From positions 1,178,001-1,242,000 of the forward strand of contig NZ_CP042163.1 in assembly GCF_007725405.1 (NCBI RefSeq): 64,000 nt of DNA. Direction: 5' to 3'. Within the stretch, counting starts at the first letter, position 1. Each line of letters begins with the position of its first letter. Shown in pieces: positions 1,912 through 54,058 of this stretch. Below the pieces are notes generated by a model. The model made no database searches and was not told the origin of the DNA. It saw nothing but the letters and a program-made list of their open reading frames with translations. Origin of the DNA: Shouchella miscanthi (GTDB lineage: Bacteria > Bacillota > Bacilli > Bacillales > Bacillaceae_D). The position numbers and the translations under genes are program-made.

Positions 1912-3123
1912 CTAGCGTACTGTACTTGGAACGTTATTAAAACAACGCTCGTAAATCCATACATAATCTTTTTTCGTTAAATCACGAGGATTTCCAATAG
2001 TTTGTGGGTCTTTTAAAGCTTCTTCAGCCCAACGATCCACTTGTTTAGGATCAACACCTTGTTCTTCAAGTGTCGGCACTTCTAATTCTTCTACAAGATC
2101 ATACATGTACTGAACAGCGGCTTTTGCAGCTTCTTCTGTTGTCATGTCTGTTGTGTTAATACCGAACGCTTGCGCAATCCTTGCAAAACGTCCTGGCGCG
2201 CCTTTCCAGTTAAACTCCATTACTGGTCCCATCATCGCTGCCACACATTGACCATGGGCAACCGGTACGATACCACCTAGAGACTGACTCATTGCGTGGG
2301 CGGCTCCGGCTGACTCACTTCCATAAGATAAGCCTGCTAACATGGCTGCTTGAGCCATACCATAACGTGCCTCTAGGTCATCGCCGTCTGAAAATGCCCG
2401 ACGGATGTACGTAGCCGCATATTCAATGGCAAGAAGAGCCACAGCATCGGTTACAGGTTGTGCATATTTCATGGTATAACACTCTACGGCATGAGCAATG
2501 GCATCAATACCAGTCATTGCCGTTACGTGTGGCGGCATCGATGTGTGAAGTTCAGGGTCAATAATGGTTAAGTGAGCTGCGATTAATGGCCCGCCCGTAT
2601 TAAACTTATACTCTCTTTTTTCATCCGTAATGACTGCCCACTGAGTTACTTCTGAACCAGTGCCTGCAGTTGTTGGAATGGTTGCTAGTGTAGGAATTCG
2701 ATGTTCCAGAGGCTTTTTCCCATCTGCTGCCTCATAATCCAAGACACGTCCTTCATGGGATACCTCTACTCCAATTGCTTTAGCCGTATCCATAGAAGAA
2801 CCTCCTCCTACAGCAACTAGACCATCACATTTATTATCGAGATAAAAAGCAGAGCCACGTGCAATTAATTTCGTCGGTGGGTTTGGTTCAACTTCATTAA
2901 AAAGTACCACTTCGACACCTGATTCTTTTAAACTATCTTCAACTGGCTTTGTTACACCAGCTTGATAGATTCCCGGGTCCGTAACAAGAAGTACTCTCTT
3001 TGAACCGAATGCTTTTATTTCATCTCCAAGATGTTTAATAGCCCCAATGCCGTGCTTAATAGCAGTTGGTACCTCAAACGTGTGATAGCTTAACATGGAT
3101 TCCACTTTCATATGCATACTCAT
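1912..3123 (-). CDS. gbsB: Choline dehydrogenase, type III iron-containing alcohol dehydrogenase
   Basis: A 403-residue type III alcohol dehydrogenase, the same size as Bacillus GbsB. It catalyses choline to glycine betaine aldehyde, the first step of osmoprotectant synthesis, in the cytosol. The NAD-binding GGGSSMDTAKA motif is at about 106-116. Metal ligands fit the family pattern: D207 and H211 in TGIDAIAHAVE, H276 in GAAHAMSQ and H290 in VPVAHGQ. It lies 29 bp downstream of gbsA, the aldehyde dehydrogenase that completes the pathway, and the pair ends at a strong hairpin. Assignment to GbsB rather than another alcohol dehydrogenase rests mainly on this pairing and the neighbouring GbsR-type regulator. 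Confidence 0.92.
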   Translation of the reverse strand: MSMHMKVESMLSYHTFEVPTAIKHGIGAIKHLGDEIKAFGSKRVLLVTDPGIYQAGVTKPVEDSLKESGVEVVLFNEVEPNPPTKLIARGSAFYLDNKCDGLVAVGGGSSMDTAKAIGVEVSHEGRVLDYEAADGKKPLEHRIPTLATIPTTAGTGSEVTQWAVITDEKREYKFNTGGPLIAAHLTIIDPELHTSMPPHVTAMTGIDAIAHAVECYTMKYAQPVTDAVALLAIEYAATYIRRAFSDGDDLEARYGMAQAAMLAGLSYGSESAGAAHAMSQSLGGIVPVAHGQCVAAMMGPVMEFNWKGAPGRFARIAQAFGINTTDMTTEEAAKAAVQYMYDLVEELEVPTLEEQGVDPKQVDRWAEEALKDPQTIGNPRDLTKKDYVWIYERCFNNVPSTVR

Positions 3124-3152: not shown

Positions 3153-4625
3153 TTAAGATTGAAACCAATTGACTGGTTGTGGCTGCTTATTACGGAAAAT
3201 GTGTTTTACTTCGGTATATTCTTCTAACCCGATTTTGCCCAACTCACGTCCAAAGCCAGATTGTTTGTAGCCGCCCCAAGGTGCTTGAGCAAAATAAGGA
3301 TGGAAGTCGTTAATCCAAACAGTCCCCATGCGTAATTTGCTGGCAACATGTTCAGCTTTATCAATATCGGCTGTAAAGACAGCTCCTGCTAAGCCGTAAA
3401 TCGTATCGTTTGCTTTAGCAATCGCTTCTTCTTTTGACGTAAACGTTTCGACGGTTAACACTGGACCGAAGACTTCTTCTTGCACAATGCGCATATCGTG
3501 CTTACAGTTTGTAAAGATCGTTGGTTCTAAAAAGAATCCGTTCTTCAGTTCATCGGCATCTGGTCGTTTACCGCCGACGGCAAGTGTAGCGCCTTCATCT
3601 AATCCAATCTGAATGTAGCGCTCTACTTTCGTTCGATGTTCAGCAGAAATCAAGGGGCCGGATTCGGTACTTTCATCAAAACCGTTCCCTAGTTTAATGC
3701 GCTTAGCACGTTCAATTAATGCTTGAACAAATCGATCATGAATCGATTCCTCAACGAGCAGTCTAGAGCCAGCAGAACATACTTGCCCAGCATGGAAGAA
3801 AACGGCATTTAATGCTTGGTCGACTGCTGTATCGAAGTCTGCATCAGCGAATACTATGTTTGGATTTTTACCGCCTAATTCAAGGGCAATCTTTTTAACA
3901 TTGCCACTTGCTGCTTGCATAATTTTCTTACCTGTTTCAATTCCTCCTGTAAATGAAACAAGATCGACATCATGGCTTTCGGATAAGACTGAACCAACTT
4001 CTGTACCTGTTCCTAGTACAAGGTTAACAACACCTTCTGGGAATCCTACTTCTTCAAAAAACTCAAACACTTTTGCTGTGGTGAGAGGCGTTATTTCACT
4101 TGGCTTCATAACAAGTGTATTTCCTGCTACTAAAGCAGGGGCTAGCTTCCATGCTGCCTGTAACAATGGGTAGTTCCACGGTGTAATTTGCGTGCAAACC
4201 CCGATCGGTTCACGAACAACTCTACTGGTCGAATCAGGAATTGGACTTTCAATGATTTCACCGCCATCTTTATCGGCAAGTCCGGCAAAGTAGAAAAATA
4301 CATTTGCAATATCATCCATATCTCCTAAACTTTCTTCGAGAGTCTTGCCAGTATCCAACGTTTCTAAATGAGCGAGTTCCTCGCGATGATCTTTAATTTT
4401 TTGACCGACAAGACGAACCATTTCCCCTCGTTCGCTTGCTGGCATGTGCGGCCAATTCCCTTCATCAAATGCGGTTCTCGCAGCAACAATAGCTCGTACC
4501 GCATCGTCTTTCGTTCCTTCTGCAGCAGTGGCAATCGTTTCTTGATTGAATGGGTTAATAATCGAGCGAGTCTGTTGGTTTTCTGCATGTACCCACTTTC
4601 CATTAATGAATAGCTGGACGTTCAT
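3153..4625 (-). CDS. gbsA: Betaine aldehyde dehydrogenase
   Basis: A 490-residue NAD-dependent aldehyde dehydrogenase that oxidises betaine aldehyde to glycine betaine. Visible active-site residues are N151 in PWNYP, the general base E249 in LELGGKNP, and the nucleophile C283 in GQVCSAGSRL. The FTGGIETGKK segment near 225 is the cofactor-binding turn. The C-terminal FGRELGKIGLEEYTEVKHI block is typical of betaine aldehyde dehydrogenases. It is the first gene of a gbsA-gbsB transcript, with a TTGACA/TAGAGT promoter at 4711-4683 and an operator-like inverted repeat at 4645-4668. Unlike in B. subtilis, the regulator gbsR lies upstream on the same strand rather than divergent. Confidence 0.95.
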   Translation of the reverse strand: MNVQLFINGKWVHAENQQTRSIINPFNQETIATAAEGTKDDAVRAIVAARTAFDEGNWPHMPASERGEMVRLVGQKIKDHREELAHLETLDTGKTLEESLGDMDDIANVFFYFAGLADKDGGEIIESPIPDSTSRVVREPIGVCTQITPWNYPLLQAAWKLAPALVAGNTLVMKPSEITPLTTAKVFEFFEEVGFPEGVVNLVLGTGTEVGSVLSESHDVDLVSFTGGIETGKKIMQAASGNVKKIALELGGKNPNIVFADADFDTAVDQALNAVFFHAGQVCSAGSRLLVEESIHDRFVQALIERAKRIKLGNGFDESTESGPLISAEHRTKVERYIQIGLDEGATLAVGGKRPDADELKNGFFLEPTIFTNCKHDMRIVQEEVFGPVLTVETFTSKEEAIAKANDTIYGLAGAVFTADIDKAEHVASKLRMGTVWINDFHPYFAQAPWGGYKQSGFGRELGKIGLEEYTEVKHIFRNKQPQPVNWFQS

Positions 4626-4847: not shown

Positions 4848-5405
4848 TTATTTATTCGCATCTTTATATCTTTCAACAAGTTCTTTTGCTAGATTACCTG
4901 TTCGAAATTGGGTGACAAGCATATCAAGAAATTCATAGTAGGCAAGAGAGGAATGAATTTTATCTAACGTAAATGAAGCTTCAGCTTGAATCTCTTCAGG
5001 TACCTCTTCGTTCTCAATGAGTGCTTTATAATAGGGAACAGCTTCTTTTATGGCTGCCATGTTCACATCCCGCTCTCGTTCCCAGCGGCGAGTGAAAAAA
5101 GAAGTGAAAAACTGGAAGAAGTCTTGTTCTGCTTCATATAAATCCTTTCGTTCCCCTTTGCGATAGACTCGGTGAATAATATTTTCGTCCAATAACTTAC
5201 GAACACCAATACTCATACTCCCTTTACTCATACCAAGTTCATCTCGAAGTTCGTTCAAATTCATTGGGTCGTCACTCAAATAGAGGGTAGCATATAATTG
5301 TCCGATCGAACGATTTACGCCGTAAATGTCCATCGTATCGGCAATGCCGTCTTTAATAATAGCGTGTATACGATCAAGTTCTTCTCGAGCTTGTTCTTTA
5401 TCCAT
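4848..5405 (-). CDS. gbsR: GbsR-type MarR-like transcriptional regulator of betaine synthesis
   Basis: A 185-residue winged-helix protein of the GbsR family. The segment IYGVNRSIGQLYATLYLSDD followed by LNELRDELGMSKGSMSIGVR (about 27-70) is the DNA-binding region, with the recognition helix near MSKGSMSIGVRKL. The C-terminal half is helical and in this family senses choline or related ligands. It sits immediately upstream of gbsAB on the same strand and is divergent from an OpuAC-like receptor gene, so local control of both is likely. A second family member is at 50244-50786. Start ATG is preceded by aaggag. In B. subtilis GbsR represses gbsAB and is relieved by choline; that role is carried over here by homology. 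Confidence 0.88.
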   Translation of the reverse strand: MDKEQAREELDRIHAIIKDGIADTMDIYGVNRSIGQLYATLYLSDDPMNLNELRDELGMSKGSMSIGVRKLLDENIIHRVYRKGERKDLYEAEQDFFQFFTSFFTRRWERERDVNMAAIKEAVPYYKALIENEEVPEEIQAEASFTLDKIHSSLAYYEFLDMLVTQFRTGNLAKELVERYKDANK

Positions 5406-5523: not shown

Positions 5524-5551
5524 TTTACAAAAAGAAATGGAGAGATGCAAG

Positions 5552-6406
5552 TTGAAAAAACGATTTTGGCCAATCATTGCTATTGTACCATTCACGTTAG
5601 CCGCGTGTGGAACGAGTGAAAGTCAGTCTTCATCGGACAAGGAAATTGAATTAACATATGTTGCGTGGGATTCAGAACTTGCATCGAATTACGTGATAAA
5701 AGAAGCGTTTGAGCAAGCGGGCTACGATGTTACATTAACGGTTGTGGAGCAAGCAATTATGTGGCAAAGTGTGGCTGATGGTAGCGTTGATGCACACGTA
5801 GCCGGATGGTTGCCGGACGACATGAAGGCAGATTATGAGCGTTATCAAGAGGAGATTGTCGATTTAGGTGCGAATCTTGAAGGGGCACGAACCGGACTTG
5901 CTGTTCCAACATACATGGATGTGACAAGTATTGAGGAATTGAATGCTGATGTTGTGTCGGAAATAACCGGAATTGATGCTGGTGCAGGGATTGCTATCGC
6001 AACAGAAGACGTAATTGAAGCGTATAATCTTGATATAGAGCAAACGCTAAGTACAGATGCTTTTATGACGCAACAGTTGCGCAATGCTTACGAAAATGAA
6101 GAGCCGATTGTTGTTACAGCTTGGGAGCCTCATTGGAAATTTAATTCGTTTGATTTACGTTTTCTAGATGATCCGGAAGGAATTTATGCAGAAGAGGGTG
6201 AAATTCGAACGATTGTACGAGAAGGGTTAGAAGAGGAAGATCCTGATGCCTTCCGCATTCTTGATCAGTTTTACTGGACAGCAGATGATATGAATGAAGT
6301 GATGTTGTTAATTGCTGAAGAGGGGATGGACCCAGAGGATGCAGCAAAGCAGTGGGTAGAGGAGAATCAAGAGAAAGTGACTGAATGGCTAGAAGGTGTT
6401 GAATAG
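5552..6406 (+). CDS. Glycine betaine/proline-betaine binding lipoprotein, OpuAC-like (orphan)
   Basis: I place the start at TTG 5552. ggagag lies at a good distance upstream, the promoter -35 is at 5462, and this start gives an ideal lipoprotein signal ending LAAC with Cys19. The mature protein is an OpuAC-type betaine receptor. The half with VAWDSELAS, MWQSVADGSVDAHVAGWLP and LGANLEGARTGLAVP comes first. The half with TGIDAGAGIAIATE, MTQQL, VTAWEPHWKF and LDDPEGIY comes second. This order is the reverse of the OpuAC at 53135. No ATPase or permease gene lies beside it, so it probably feeds another transporter, or its partners are elsewhere. A strong hairpin follows at once. Confidence 0.85.
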   Translation: MKKRFWPIIAIVPFTLAACGTSESQSSSDKEIELTYVAWDSELASNYVIKEAFEQAGYDVTLTVVEQAIMWQSVADGSVDAHVAGWLPDDMKADYERYQEEIVDLGANLEGARTGLAVPTYMDVTSIEELNADVVSEITGIDAGAGIAIATEDVIEAYNLDIEQTLSTDAFMTQQLRNAYENEEPIVVTAWEPHWKFNSFDLRFLDDPEGIYAEEGEIRTIVREGLEEEDPDAFRILDQFYWTADDMNEVMLLIAEEGMDPEDAAKQWVEENQEKVTEWLEGVE

Positions 6407-50243: not shown

Positions 50244-50786
50244 TTACTTCTTTGGTAATATTTTGAAAATTACCCCGCTTTCAAGGGTGGTAACAAAGTC
50301 ATCGATCCAATCATAATAGCCGTTTGCGTGCTGGAGTTTTATTAAATCAATTTTAATTTGATCTGTTAAGTGAGGGGCTTCCTCTAGAAGAGACTGTAAC
50401 TCCTGTTCCATTTCTAGACTGGCTTTACGATTGCGTTCTATAGCCGTTCGCCATTGCTTTGTAAAAATGGCTATAAAGGAATTATACCAATCGTCTTCTG
50501 ACGTATAGAGGTCTTTTCGTACACCCTTCTGCCATACCTTTCTGGCCATATTCGCTTCCGTTAGCTGACGAATACTCGTGCTCATACTTGTCTTGCTCAT
50601 ACCTAAATGATCACTCATTTGGTCGAGGGTTAGGGCGTTTTCTTCAAATAGGAGTGCTCCGTAAAGACGACCAGTTGATTCATTCATGCCGTATAGATGA
50701 AGGTTTGTGGATAGCTCATGGATGAATGTTTCACGTATATGTTGGAGTCGTTCATCTAAAGATGGATCATAGTTTGTTGTCTCCAT
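50244..50786 (-). CDS. GbsR-family regulator divergent from opuA (OpcR-like)
   Basis: A 180-residue second GbsR-type protein. I start at the ATG of METTNYDP, which has ggaggaatatt just upstream; the 15 extra residues of the longer frame lack a ribosome site. LHLYGMNESTGRLYGALLFEEN and DQMSDHLGMSKTSMSTSIRQL are the family DNA-binding region, parallel to the gbsR gene at 4848. It is divergent from opuAA-AB-AC and so likely controls it, as OpcR controls choline/betaine uptake genes in B. subtilis. That role is inferred. Confidence 0.85.
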   Translation of the reverse strand: METTNYDPSLDERLQHIRETFIHELSTNLHLYGMNESTGRLYGALLFEENALTLDQMSDHLGMSKTSMSTSIRQLTEANMARKVWQKGVRKDLYTSEDDWYNSFIAIFTKQWRTAIERNRKASLEMEQELQSLLEEAPHLTDQIKIDLIKLQHANGYYDWIDDFVTTLESGVIFKILPKK

Positions 50787-50906
50787 AATATTCCTCCAAA
50801 AGATTGATAAATAAAGTGTAACAAAATACAAAAAAAGAGAACACTAAGAGAAATGAGAGGATTTATTAGGATAATGGAGCATTTCAAAGGAAAGGTACGA
50901 TTAAAT

Positions 50907-50990: not shown

Positions 50991-51035
50991 TACATAGTCA
51001 TAAAGACGCAGGAATTGTATAAAGAGGTGGAAGAT

Positions 51036-52253
51036 TTGTCGAAAATAAAGGTTGAAGGTTTAACTAAAGTGTTTGGCAAAAAACCTAAACGAGCCTTAGA
51101 TATGCTAAAAGAAGGTAAGAAAAAACCTGAGATATTAGAGAAAACTGGATTGACCGTTGGGGTTGATCGGGCGAGTTTCGAAGTTGAAGATGGCGAAATT
51201 TTCGTAATAATGGGACTTTCTGGTAGTGGGAAGTCAACGCTAGTTCGACTTCTAAATCGCTTAATTAATCCAACAGTCGGAAGCGTTATGGTCGATGGGG
51301 AAGATTTAGCGAAAATGGACCAAAAAAACCTTCGCGAAGTTCGACGTAAAAAAATGAGCATGGTGTTTCAAAAGTTTGGTTTGTTTCCAAACCGTACCAT
51401 TTTAAGCAATGTCGAATATGGTCTTGAAATTCAAGGTATTCCGAAAGAAAAAAGAAAAGAGACAGCTCAAACATCATTAGAACTTGTTGGATTAAAAGGA
51501 TATGAAACAAGTTATCCTGATCAACTCTCTGGTGGTATGCAGCAACGTGTTGGTTTAGCACGAGCGCTTGCAAATGATCCGGACATTCTTTTGATGGATG
51601 AAGCATTTTCGGCACTTGATCCACTTATTCGTAAAGATATGCAAGATGAATTACTTGATCTACAAGAAAAAATGAATCGCACGATTATCTTTATTACGCA
51701 TGATTTGGATGAGGCGCTTAGAATTGGTGACCGCATCATGATCATGAAAGACGGTTCTGTTGTTCAAATTGGGACGCCCGAGGAAATTTTAACAAAGCCG
51801 GAAAACGAATATGTTGAGCGCTTTGTTGAAGATGTGGATCGTTCGAAAGTTTTTACTGCTGAAAACGTCATGATTCGTCCAGAGACGATTAATCTTGAAA
51901 AAGATGGTCCTCGTGTGGCGCTGCAACGAATGAAAGATGCAGGCATCTCTAGTATTTACGTGACAAAGCGTAATCGAGACCTTGTTGGTATTATTCATGC
52001 TACAGATGTTTCTGAACTGATCAAGCAAAATGTTAACAGTGTAGAATCCATTATTATTGAAGATATTCCAAGTGTAGAAAAGGATACGCCTTTAAATGAA
52101 TTAATGGACCGTCTAGCAGTGAGCGCTGTACCGCTTGTTGTTAAAGAAGAAAATAGATTAAAAGGTATTATTGTACGAAGCGCAGTTCTAGGTGCGTTAT
52201 CAGGAAGTGAGGTCGATTTTAATGGATTTTCTACCCCGTCTGGAAGTAGGTGA
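51036..52253 (+). CDS. opuAA: Glycine betaine ABC transporter ATPase
   Basis: I start at TTG 51036 (SKIKVEGLTKVFG), with agaggtgg upstream; 405 residues. Walker A is GLSGSGKST (about 60-68), signature LSGGMQQRVGLARAL (about 168), Walker B LLMDEAFSALD. After about 270 come two CBS domains (AENVMIRPETINL and VESIIIEDIPSVE), which in OpuA sense ionic strength at the membrane and switch transport on in osmotic upshift. It is the first gene of opuAA-AB-AC and overlaps the permease gene by 32 bp. Confidence 0.95.
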   Translation: MSKIKVEGLTKVFGKKPKRALDMLKEGKKKPEILEKTGLTVGVDRASFEVEDGEIFVIMGLSGSGKSTLVRLLNRLINPTVGSVMVDGEDLAKMDQKNLREVRRKKMSMVFQKFGLFPNRTILSNVEYGLEIQGIPKEKRKETAQTSLELVGLKGYETSYPDQLSGGMQQRVGLARALANDPDILLMDEAFSALDPLIRKDMQDELLDLQEKMNRTIIFITHDLDEALRIGDRIMIMKDGSVVQIGTPEEILTKPENEYVERFVEDVDRSKVFTAENVMIRPETINLEKDGPRVALQRMKDAGISSIYVTKRNRDLVGIIHATDVSELIKQNVNSVESIIIEDIPSVEKDTPLNELMDRLAVSAVPLVVKEENRLKGIIVRSAVLGALSGSEVDFNGFSTPSGSR

Positions 52254-53070
52254 ATGGGTTGAGGTCATTGCCGACTGGTTAAATCGAAATGCAGATTGGT
52301 TTTTTAGTGCGATTGTCTTTTTAATTGGTCAATTAATTGATGGAATTTATTGGGTTATATCATTACCGCCTAGTTGGCTGTTTATTATCCTTATTGCTAT
52401 TGCAACGTATTTGTTAAATCGTGGTAAATGGGGACTTGTTGCCTTTGTAACCATCGGTTTAGTCTTTATTGATAGCTTGAATTTTTGGAATGGAATGCTT
52501 GATACATTGTCCATCGTTCTCTCGGCAGGTGTCATTTCGGTCATTTTAGGGGTGCCGTTAGGGATTTGGATGGCCAAAAAAGATGGTGTTGAAGCGTTTT
52601 TCAAGCCTATACTTGATTTCATGCAAACGATGCCCGCATTTGTATACTTAATACCAGCTGTAACATTCTTTGGTGTTGGAATGGTACCAGGGGTTGTGGC
52701 ATCTGTTATATTCGCGATGCCTCCAACTGTCCGAATGACTAATTTAGGGATTCGTCAAGTATCCACCGAACTTATTGAAGCGTCAGAAGCGTTCGGGTCA
52801 ACGAGTACACAAAAATTATTTAAAGTCCAATTGCCACTTGCAAAAGGAACGATTATGGCTGGAATTAACCAGACTGTAATGCTCGCTCTTTCAATGGTCG
52901 TTATTGCTGCGATGATTGGTGCATCGGGTATTGGCCGTGATGTGTATCGTGCTGTTGGTCAAAACGATATTGGAGCTGGATTCGAATCAGGGATTGCTAT
53001 CGTAATCGTAGCTATTATTCTTGACCGATTAACACAAAGCTTTAATAAAAAGCAAGAAGCACGAGGTTGA
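52222..53070 (+). CDS. opuAB: Glycine betaine ABC transporter permease
   Basis: I start at ATG 52222 (MDFLPRLEVGEWV), preceded by gaggtcg, giving 282 residues, the OpuAB length. The protein has about seven membrane segments. The ABC coupling loop is at TELIEASEAFGSTSTQKLFKVQLPLA (about 185-210). It forms the betaine channel with OpuAA. opuAC follows after 64 bp. Confidence 0.95.
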   Translation: MDFLPRLEVGEWVEVIADWLNRNADWFFSAIVFLIGQLIDGIYWVISLPPSWLFIILIAIATYLLNRGKWGLVAFVTIGLVFIDSLNFWNGMLDTLSIVLSAGVISVILGVPLGIWMAKKDGVEAFFKPILDFMQTMPAFVYLIPAVTFFGVGMVPGVVASVIFAMPPTVRMTNLGIRQVSTELIEASEAFGSTSTQKLFKVQLPLAKGTIMAGINQTVMLALSMVVIAAMIGASGIGRDVYRAVGQNDIGAGFESGIAIVIVAIILDRLTQSFNKKQEARG

Positions 53071-53134: not shown

Positions 53135-54058
53135 ATGAATTGGAAGCATATAGGAACGACAACAAGTCTTGCACTAGTTGTAACATTAGCTGCATGTGGT
53201 AGTGACGACAATGGTGATGGTAATACAGGTTCAGTTGAAGATGAAGCAGATATGTTGTCTCAAGAAGAGATTGCAGAGAATTTAACAGCTATTACGGGGA
53301 TTGAACCTGGAGCAGGTATCATGACTGCAACAGAAGATGCGATTGAGCATTACAATTTAGATTTAGAGTTAGATGTCTCAAGTAGTGCGGTTATGACACA
53401 GCAACTTGCGAATCATATTGAAAATCATGATCCAATTGTTGTGACAGGTTGGTCACCACACTGGAAGTTCGAATCATTTGATTTAAAATACTTAGACGAT
53501 CCAGATAATATTTATGGCGACGCAGAGAATATTCATACGATTGCACGTCTTGGTTTAGAAGAGGACATGCCAGAAGCGCATCAAATTTTAACGAATTTCT
53601 TCTGGACACCAGAAGATATGGAAACCGTCATGCTAGAAATTGAAGAAGGCGCAAGTCCTGAAGAAGCTGCGCGTAACTGGGTGGATGATAACCAAGATAC
53701 AGTTAGCGAATGGACTAATGGTGTCGAGGAAGTAGATGGCCAATCTATTACGTTATCCCTTGTGAACTGGGATTCAGAAATTGCCTCTACTAATGTGATC
53801 GCGACAGTTCTTACTGATATGGGCTTTGAACCGAATTTAATGGACATGGAAGCACCATATATGTGGCAATCTCTTGCAACTGGTGATTCAGACGCGAGTG
53901 TAGCGGCTTGGTTACCATTAACACACGGACATTTCATTGAAGATTATGAAGGTGACTTAGAAGATCTAGGTGCAAATCTTGAAGGTACTAAAATCGGTCT
54001 TGTTGTGCCTGAATACATGGATATTGACTCTATTACAGATTTACCAACAAATGAATAA
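53135..54058 (+). CDS. opuAC: Glycine betaine binding lipoprotein OpuAC
   Basis: A 307-residue lipoprotein with a signal ending TLAAC (Cys21). The half with TGIEPGAGIMTATEDAIE, SSAVMTQQL, VVTGWSPHWKFESF and LDDPDNIYG comes first. The half with LVNWDSEIASTNVI, MWQSLATGDSDASVAAWLP and LGANLEGTKIGLVVP comes second. This is the B. subtilis OpuAC order and the reverse of the receptor at 5552. Trp residues in GWSPHW and AAWLP are candidates for the betaine-binding aromatic cage. ggaggtcg precedes the ATG. Confidence 0.95.
   Translation: MNWKHIGTTTSLALVVTLAACGSDDNGDGNTGSVEDEADMLSQEEIAENLTAITGIEPGAGIMTATEDAIEHYNLDLELDVSSSAVMTQQLANHIENHDPIVVTGWSPHWKFESFDLKYLDDPDNIYGDAENIHTIARLGLEEDMPEAHQILTNFFWTPEDMETVMLEIEEGASPEEAARNWVDDNQDTVSEWTNGVEEVDGQSITLSLVNWDSEIASTNVIATVLTDMGFEPNLMDMEAPYMWQSLATGDSDASVAAWLPLTHGHFIEDYEGDLEDLGANLEGTKIGLVVPEYMDIDSITDLPTNE

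Follow-up and report, generated by a model that had tools for sequence, protein, structure and literature searches.

A circular permutation in OpuA-type receptors that was probably undone more than once, and a putative choline receptor at a gbs locus of Shouchella miscanthi

Circular permutation is usually regarded as a rare and one-way change in proteins. In OpuA-type receptors two halves can be told apart: the A half carries the motifs WDSE, WLP and LGANLEG, and the B half carries TGIDAGAG and WxPHW. The order A then B is called canonical in this work, and the order B then A permuted. B. subtilis OpuAC (2b4l) is of the permuted kind, whereas the receptor domain of L. lactis OpuABC (3l6g, 3l6h, 7ahc) is canonical. 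Circular permutation among glycine-betaine-binding proteins was described in the CPSARST study, whose accessible part shows 2b4l, 1r9l and 1sw1 (PMC2395249), and this was the sole account of circular permutation involving OpuAC found in the literature searched. In contrast to the present analysis, the structures compared there belong to different species, and the accessible part contains no count of events, no return to the former order and no tandem receptors. Two other described systems are relevant. GbsU of Halobacillus halophilus and Virgibacillus is encoded by a lone receptor gene adjoining gbsR and the genes of glycine-betaine synthesis, and the gbs operons of Halobacillus were reported to respond to choline (PMC6207618, accessible part). 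Tandem receptor domains fused to the permease are known from GlnPQ-type transporters, according to the accessible part of PMC8025302.

The window analyzed here, a 64 kb stretch of the S. miscanthi genome, contains two receptors of this family, which are referred to by the positions of their start codons (Table 1). Alongside the 5552 gene, on the opposite strand, lies a gene for a gbsR-type regulator followed by gbsA and gbsB, and there is no adjacent permease or ATPase gene. Being a lone receptor gene with gbsR and glycine-betaine synthesis genes alongside, it can be likened by position to gbsU as characterized in the accessible part of PMC6207618. The 53135 gene is the last one of an opuAA-opuAB-opuAC operon, which has a GbsR-type regulator of its own; the opuAR type of regulator is described in the same paper (accessible part). 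The 5552 gene starts with TTG, which is a plausible start codon: the sequence GGAGAG stands 7 bases upstream, at 5539-5544, and the N-terminus of the product resembles a lipoprotein signal. There is an alternative in-frame ATG at 5537, and GGAGAG would overlap such a start. The window also contains a short-chain fatty acid transporter gene (PF02667, 433-1791), located downstream of gbsB in the same orientation.

Table 1. Features of the two receptor loci (positions in the 64 kb window)
Feature	Position	Strand	Evidence
gbsB, choline dehydrogenase	1912..3123	-	NF053866, 728.1 bits, over cut-off 550
gbsA, betaine-aldehyde dehydrogenase	3153..4625	-	TIGR01804, 756 bits, over cut-off 668.6
gbsR/cudC-type regulator, divergent from 5552 receptor	4848..5405	-	NF047500, 199.9 bits, under cut-off 218
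Lone lipoprotein receptor, canonical A-B, gbsU-like by position	5552..6406	+	PF04069 collinear, ribosome site, 3l6h match
A half of 5552 receptor (WDSE ... WLPDDM ... LGANLEG)	5642..5947	+	half-profile, ORF residues 72-173
A-to-B junction of 5552 receptor, four residues DVVS	5948..5959	+	
B half of 5552 receptor (TGIDAGAG ... WEPHW ... FDLRFLDDP)	5960..6403	+	half-profile, ORF residues 178-325
Second GbsR-type regulator (opuAR-like), divergent from opuA	50244..50831	-	NF047500, 156.9 bits, under cut-off 218
opuAA, ATPase of OpuA operon	51015..52253	+	TIGR01186, 490.6 bits, over cut-off 326.6
opuAB, permease of OpuA operon	52192..53070	+	best NCBIfam TIGR03416, 332.4 bits, under cut-off 363
OpuAC, permuted B-A	53135..54058	+	PF04069 in two pieces, 2b4l structure match
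B half of OpuAC	53288..53728	+	half-profile, ORF residues 53-199
B-to-A linker of OpuAC, five residues EVDGQ	53729..53743	+	length and pattern conserved among permuted receptors
A half of OpuAC	53744..54049	+	half-profile, ORF residues 205-306

According to the original prediction, made from the sequence of the window, the two receptors consist of homologous halves in opposite order. Profiles, half alignments and predicted structures all confirmed this. The Pfam OpuAC profile (PF04069) matches the 5462 ORF, which encodes the 5552 receptor, collinearly over profile positions 1-257 (E 7.4e-62), whereas its match to the 53135 ORF is split in two, the first piece corresponding to the profile's later part (E 2.1e-58); with 209.7 and 198.4 bits, respectively, both scores are above the curated cut-off of 21.2. 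When the halves were aligned separately, as had been proposed, 47 of 99 positions were identical between the A halves and 88 of 147 between the B halves, with z values of 37.5 and 71.4 in a test with 300 shuffles. The crosswise pairs gave z values of 5.1 and -0.6, of which the former may stem in part from the signal peptides, its alignment starting close to residues 14 and 16. In AlphaFold models (mean pLDDT 89.0 for 5552 and 88.5 for 53135) the two proteins have the same succession of strands and helices, except that the halves have changed places. Over its whole length the 5552 model fits L. lactis OpuAC, 3l6h (TM by target 0.96, rmsd 1.2, 255 columns), and the 53135 model fits B. subtilis OpuAC, 2b4l (TM by target 0.93), whereas just 155 columns of the latter model could be matched to 3l6h. 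With homologous halves, swapped order and the same fold, the two proteins are circular permutants of each other. The 53135 protein is an OpuAC in the B. subtilis sense, with B before A, one linker joining them, and opuAA and opuAB alongside; none of this is true of the 5552 receptor, which shares fold and halves with 2b4l but has the order A-B and lacks the pocket histidine. It is like the L. lactis receptor domain in its order (42% identity over 255 columns), and differs from it in that the latter is fused to the permease and has kept the Thr-His pair of the pocket (see below). That reversed order among such receptors was already known, as the prediction had also said, is borne out by the accessible part of PMC2395249.

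The S. miscanthi genome encodes seven members of the family, among which the product of the 53135 gene is the only permuted one. Both receptor forms are present in each of the 13 genomes that represent the genus, counting the one that contains the window, and the 5552 type was found in further genera of the family set. Among the best 80 matches listed, the 5552-type locus also occurs in Geomicrobium, Alkalicoccus and the Bacillaceae strain JMAK1. A gbsR-like gene neighbors 14 of the 15 genes of the 5552 clade (the exception is L014) and the receptor gene in all six named loci, among which L234, L235 and L237 repeat genes of the former set (L017, L020 and L021); it is divergent in five of the six and co-directional in Alkalicoccus. 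One of the two origins that the original prediction had considered, duplication and permutation of OpuAC within the genome or the genus, would suit the presence of both genes in one 64 kb window. It is nevertheless rejected by the occurrence of both forms in every one of the 13 genomes. The finding of the 5552 type in other genera of the family and, among the matches listed, in Geomicrobium, Alkalicoccus and JMAK1 also speaks against it, as does the fact that the two genes are not sisters in the receptor trees or the combined tree but group with their kin from other genera. We regard a local origin as practically dismissed. The other option, separate acquisition, does not fit well either: both genes are old, but the canonical receptors nest inside the permuted ones (see below). 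In two genomes that also carry a 5552-type gene we observed what look like decaying copies: a receptor split into two single-half frames (L127, 2976-3900) and a lone B half (L128, 2879-3346).

To place the two orders on trees, the frames of the fetched loci were surveyed with profiles of the halves. The survey yielded 86 frames of the order A-B, 26 of A-B fused to the permease, 85 of B-A, three of B-A fused, seven of B-A-B-A fused, one of B-A-B-A-B-A fused and four with a single half. Redundancy cuts in the different sets were at 90%, 80%, 76%, 85% and 78% identity, 76% applying to the 137-row receptor set, 85% to the permease set and 78% to the combined set. Canonical rows with less than 43.5% identity to four references served as outgroup, 12 of 23 being kept in the 125-row and 8 of 23 in the 137-row set; Borrelia and ChoX rows were left out of the trees.

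In the receptor tree of 125 rows and 250 columns the canonical and permuted OpuA-type receptors are united in a clade (100/100) that excludes 12 ProX-like canonical rows. The window OpuAC clusters with permuted OpuAC proteins from its own genus and family. The 5552 clade has a permuted sister (95/89), and lies within a 58-row clade (98/99) composed of 29 permuted and 29 canonical rows. The corresponding forks of the 137-row tree are weaker, 83/93 for a 70-row clade and 80/92 for the permuted sister of the 5552 clade. Forcing the permuted rows into one clade was rejected with both sets: the cost was dlnL 150.6 (AU p 1.25e-5) for 60 rows of the 125-row set and dlnL 151.5 (AU p 0.00024) for 56 rows of the 137-row set. 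LG+G4 searches from four starts, none of them complete, reached about -35272 when free and -35423 at best when held, a gap of at least 151. Inside the 58-row clade neither the 29 permuted rows (p 2.7e-6) nor the 29 canonical rows (p 0.0059) could be forced together. A single return accounting for 51 of the 53 canonical OpuA-type rows, that is, for all except L061 and L220, was likewise rejected (dlnL 140.6). The p values of these topology tests are somewhat optimistic because the groups were named after the first tree had been seen.

The intermingling of the two orders might be an artefact of short sequences, conversion between paralogues or long branches, with a single permutation and no return behind it. 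Receptors offer about 250 columns, and neither half taken alone rejects one permuted clade (p 0.363 for A and 0.262 for B). Trees of the separate halves, which had been proposed as a check, gave a divided answer in that they disagree on the neighbors of the 5552 clade, A placing it with canonical rows and B with a permuted row. However, the OpuAB permease, a gene separate from the receptor, mixes in the same way. On a permease tree that excludes the receptor (138 rows, quick search without bootstrap), receptor order needs 8 changes, at least 4 of which are forced by firm branches. Putting the operons with permuted receptors into one clade was rejected by the permease data (dlnL 255, p 1e-45; 7 operons with both receptor orders were left out of this test). 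Three named outgroup rows did not fall on one side of a branch in this tree, and two of them were used as root for a two-rate model. At the node uniting the window OpuAB with the L. lactis type this model gives a permuted state with P 1.000, a value that becomes 0.981 if the rate of returns is set to one tenth of that of permutations; at the narrower node joining L081 to the L. lactis type P was 0.91. Since the 5552 gene has no adjacent permease gene, the permease tree bears on the L. lactis-type return only.

Receptor and permease were also combined (125 rows, 527 columns, quick search without bootstrap; permease data are lacking for the ten 5552-clade rows and for five more). The combined tree has a 101-row clade (SH-aLRT 95) containing all 50 permuted rows with canonical groups nested among them. 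These are the 5552 clade (97), which is joined by two permuted rows (96), the L. lactis/Oceanobacillus type, located within a 38-row clade (100) that includes five permuted rows, a Paenibacillaceae group (seven rows, 99) and, as a separate item, the long-branched L061. Outside the 101-row clade are the canonical receptors of other phyla and the Thermoactinomycetaceae kind, whose junction looks older. One clade of all permuted rows was rejected by the combined data (dlnL 448.9, p 8e-6), as was a clade uniting the 5552 clade with 33 further canonical rows (p 0.00066); both costs may be special in part, L057 being nested in permuted surroundings and the permuted row L243 having a permease in common with a canonical receptor. 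The results from the permease and from the combined data contradict an artefact unless receptor genes often moved between operons, and we consider this explanation improbable. A single permutation without reversal is rejected by the receptor, permease and combined data, with AU p values ranging from 2e-4 to 1e-45. Taking these results together with the properties of the 5552 pocket (see below), it is fairly probable that the OpuA receptors of the Bacilli underwent one permutation followed by several returns, including that of the 5552 receptor, which itself would be of the choline type.

If the half order was restored elsewhere, and once only, the 5552 lineage could have obtained its canonical receptor by horizontal transfer of the L. 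lactis type. The A-to-B junctions have four residues in both groups, and with the receptor alone a union of the 5552 clade with the L. lactis type is not rejected (p 0.054); the same is true of L057 with the L. lactis type (p 0.249). Thus, the two canonical groups are separate in the combined tree, but not firmly so by the receptor alone. Against a transfer stand the rejection, by the combined data, of a union between the 5552 clade and those 33 canonical rows, a cost to which permuted rows nested among the 33 may add, the position of permuted relatives as the nearest neighbors of the 5552 clade, and the dissimilar junction sequences, DVVS as opposed to the QANK or EADH types. We judge such a transfer to be quite improbable, and retain a return of the 5552 lineage itself as the preferred explanation.

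The direction of change was approached through linkers, junctions and rates. Of 105 permuted units, 102 have a B-to-A linker of five residues, the fourth of which is Gly in 99 and the second Val in 88 of these linkers; the shared length and pattern speak for one permutation. In equal-cost parsimony on the 137-row receptor tree, one permutation with nine returns ties with up to six permutations and four returns, which leaves 4-9 returns and 1-6 permutations. A two-rate model on the receptor data makes the ancestor of the window pair permuted with P 0.99997, and with P 0.80 if returns are ten times rarer. The canonical order could, alternatively, be ancestral throughout, with numerous independent permutations and few, if any, returns. 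This would agree with the canonical order of relatives in other phyla and of ProX-like receptors, and with the six permutations that equal costs permit. However, without any return 16 permutations are needed as compared to one permutation and nine returns, the fit is 8.1 log units worse when returns are made ten times rarer, and the permuted units have one linker length and a common pattern. Many independent permutations therefore appear unlikely.

A score that distinguishes the two classes of sequence was applied to the A-to-B junctions; with left-out sequences it recognized 68 of 72 older junctions and 40 of 42 permuted N-termini. Among distinct sequences, permuted-like junctions were found in 11 of 14 of the 5552 clade, 35 of 56 of the L. 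lactis type and 11 of 23 of the Paenibacillaceae, in neither of the two L057/L060 sequences, and in two of five Bacillaceae rows with seven-residue junctions. We had considered the junction as a scar proving passage through a tandem, and dropped this argument as weak evidence because the scored test backs the returned groups only in part. The Thermoactinomycetaceae-like group was also dropped as a candidate return since its junctions are old (1 of 21 permuted-like) and it lies outside the permuted clade of the combined tree.

In the reading that we prefer, the ancestor of the Bacilli OpuA receptors would have been permuted once, and the order would have been restored more than once, in the lineages of 5552 and of the L. 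lactis type and, probably, among Paenibacillaceae. A tandem duplication of the permuted gene, giving B-A-B-A, followed by loss of the outer B and the outer A to leave A-B, would be the likely route. Tandem arrangements of this kind do exist. In the g92 genus group 16 genomes matched, 15 with frames of 862-868 residues and one with a frame of 1138 residues. Eight of these frames were read (L096, L097, L098 and L194-L198): seven have the arrangement permease-B-A-B-A, and the one of 1138 residues is permease-B-A-B-A-B-A. They differ from the GlnPQ-type transporters, as these are described in the accessible part of PMC8025302, in substrate and family, the g92 domains being permuted OpuA receptors. 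If the transporter is dimeric, such fusions would provide it with four or six receptors. Two separate permuted genes are consecutive in one operon of L119, and canonical and permuted receptor genes are adjacent, in either order, in L095, L242, L243, L247, L248, L256 and L286; the permuted frame of L256 starts oddly and may be damaged. The tandem frames are plausible as intermediates of a return, and the genes concerned belong to another genus group than 5552.

The canonical receptors of gbs loci need not be of one origin. The nearest structure reported for GbsU is Borrelia ProX (3TMG; PMC6207618, accessible part), whereas that of the 5552 receptor is 3l6h. As a proxy for GbsU we used L232 (2341-3297, genome G106), a receptor in a Halobacillus-like gbsA-gbsR-receptor locus, which is under the identity threshold for ProX-like rows. 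Judged by the reported structural neighbor and by this proxy, Halobacillus GbsU may belong to the ProX-like branch. The gbs locus may thus have recruited receptors of different branches twice, and the 5552 receptor may represent a second, separate recruitment.

Equivalents of three cage tryptophans, W330, W377 and W484, are kept in all 21 rows of the 5552 clade, a set that includes three genes fetched twice. We take W330 and W377 to be cage residues of the glycine-betaine pocket. W484 is a cage residue of L. lactis OpuAC, and the histidine of the Thr-His pair that follows WLP holds the carboxylate of glycine betaine in this protein (PMC2861598, accessible part). The accessible text prints the residue as H392; in the chain numbering of 7ahc a serine occupies position 392, and WLPNTH has its histidine at 382, which we took as the one meant. 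In the 5552 clade all 21 rows have Asp-Met in place of the Thr-His pair, the carboxylate-holding histidine thus giving way to Met, whereas Asp-Met occurs in none of 290 rows outside the clade (112 permuted, 146 canonical OpuA-type and 32 ProX-like, near-copies included). Because of the Asp-Met pocket and the location in a choline-to-betaine locus, we infer from sequence and gene context that the 5552 protein may be a choline receptor, or bind a similar compound that has no carboxylate. It did not reach the cut-off of the choline-binding receptor family TIGR03414 (133.2 bits as compared to 379.05). The original prediction had called it a betaine receptor. If so, it would bind glycine betaine as OpuAC does and be merely a second receptor for OpuA; the retention of all three cage tryptophans in every row agrees with this, but the pair beside the cage has changed in the whole clade and the genes of the locus are those of choline oxidation, so that the designation is doubtful, although glycine betaine as the ligand keeps an appreciable, if lesser, probability. 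In the choline reading, the receptor would capture choline or another carboxylate-free quaternary ammonium compound once the regulator is relieved, and pass it to a permease encoded elsewhere. This could be the window OpuAB, which is a candidate partner since a search of the genome found no other close OpuAB (the next one has 44% identity). For the whole chain of events, namely one permutation, at least three returns by way of tandem receptors, and recruitment of one returned copy to a choline locus with a change of its pocket, the balance of evidence is slightly favorable.

The basic permutation is known already; the novelty, provided that it is confirmed, would lie in a family that appears to have undone the swap of its halves several times. 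A literature search found no publication on a restored half order, on domain dislocation in OpuAC or on tandem or fused OpuA receptors, a weak absence with most subscription papers outside its range. If true, the finding would mean that circular permutation is reversible in nature and recurrent within one receptor family. The occurrence of both orders in one operon and the double and triple fusions make the duplication route testable, and solved structures are available for both orders. The case also yields a clear prediction of how a glycine-betaine receptor would have become a choline receptor.
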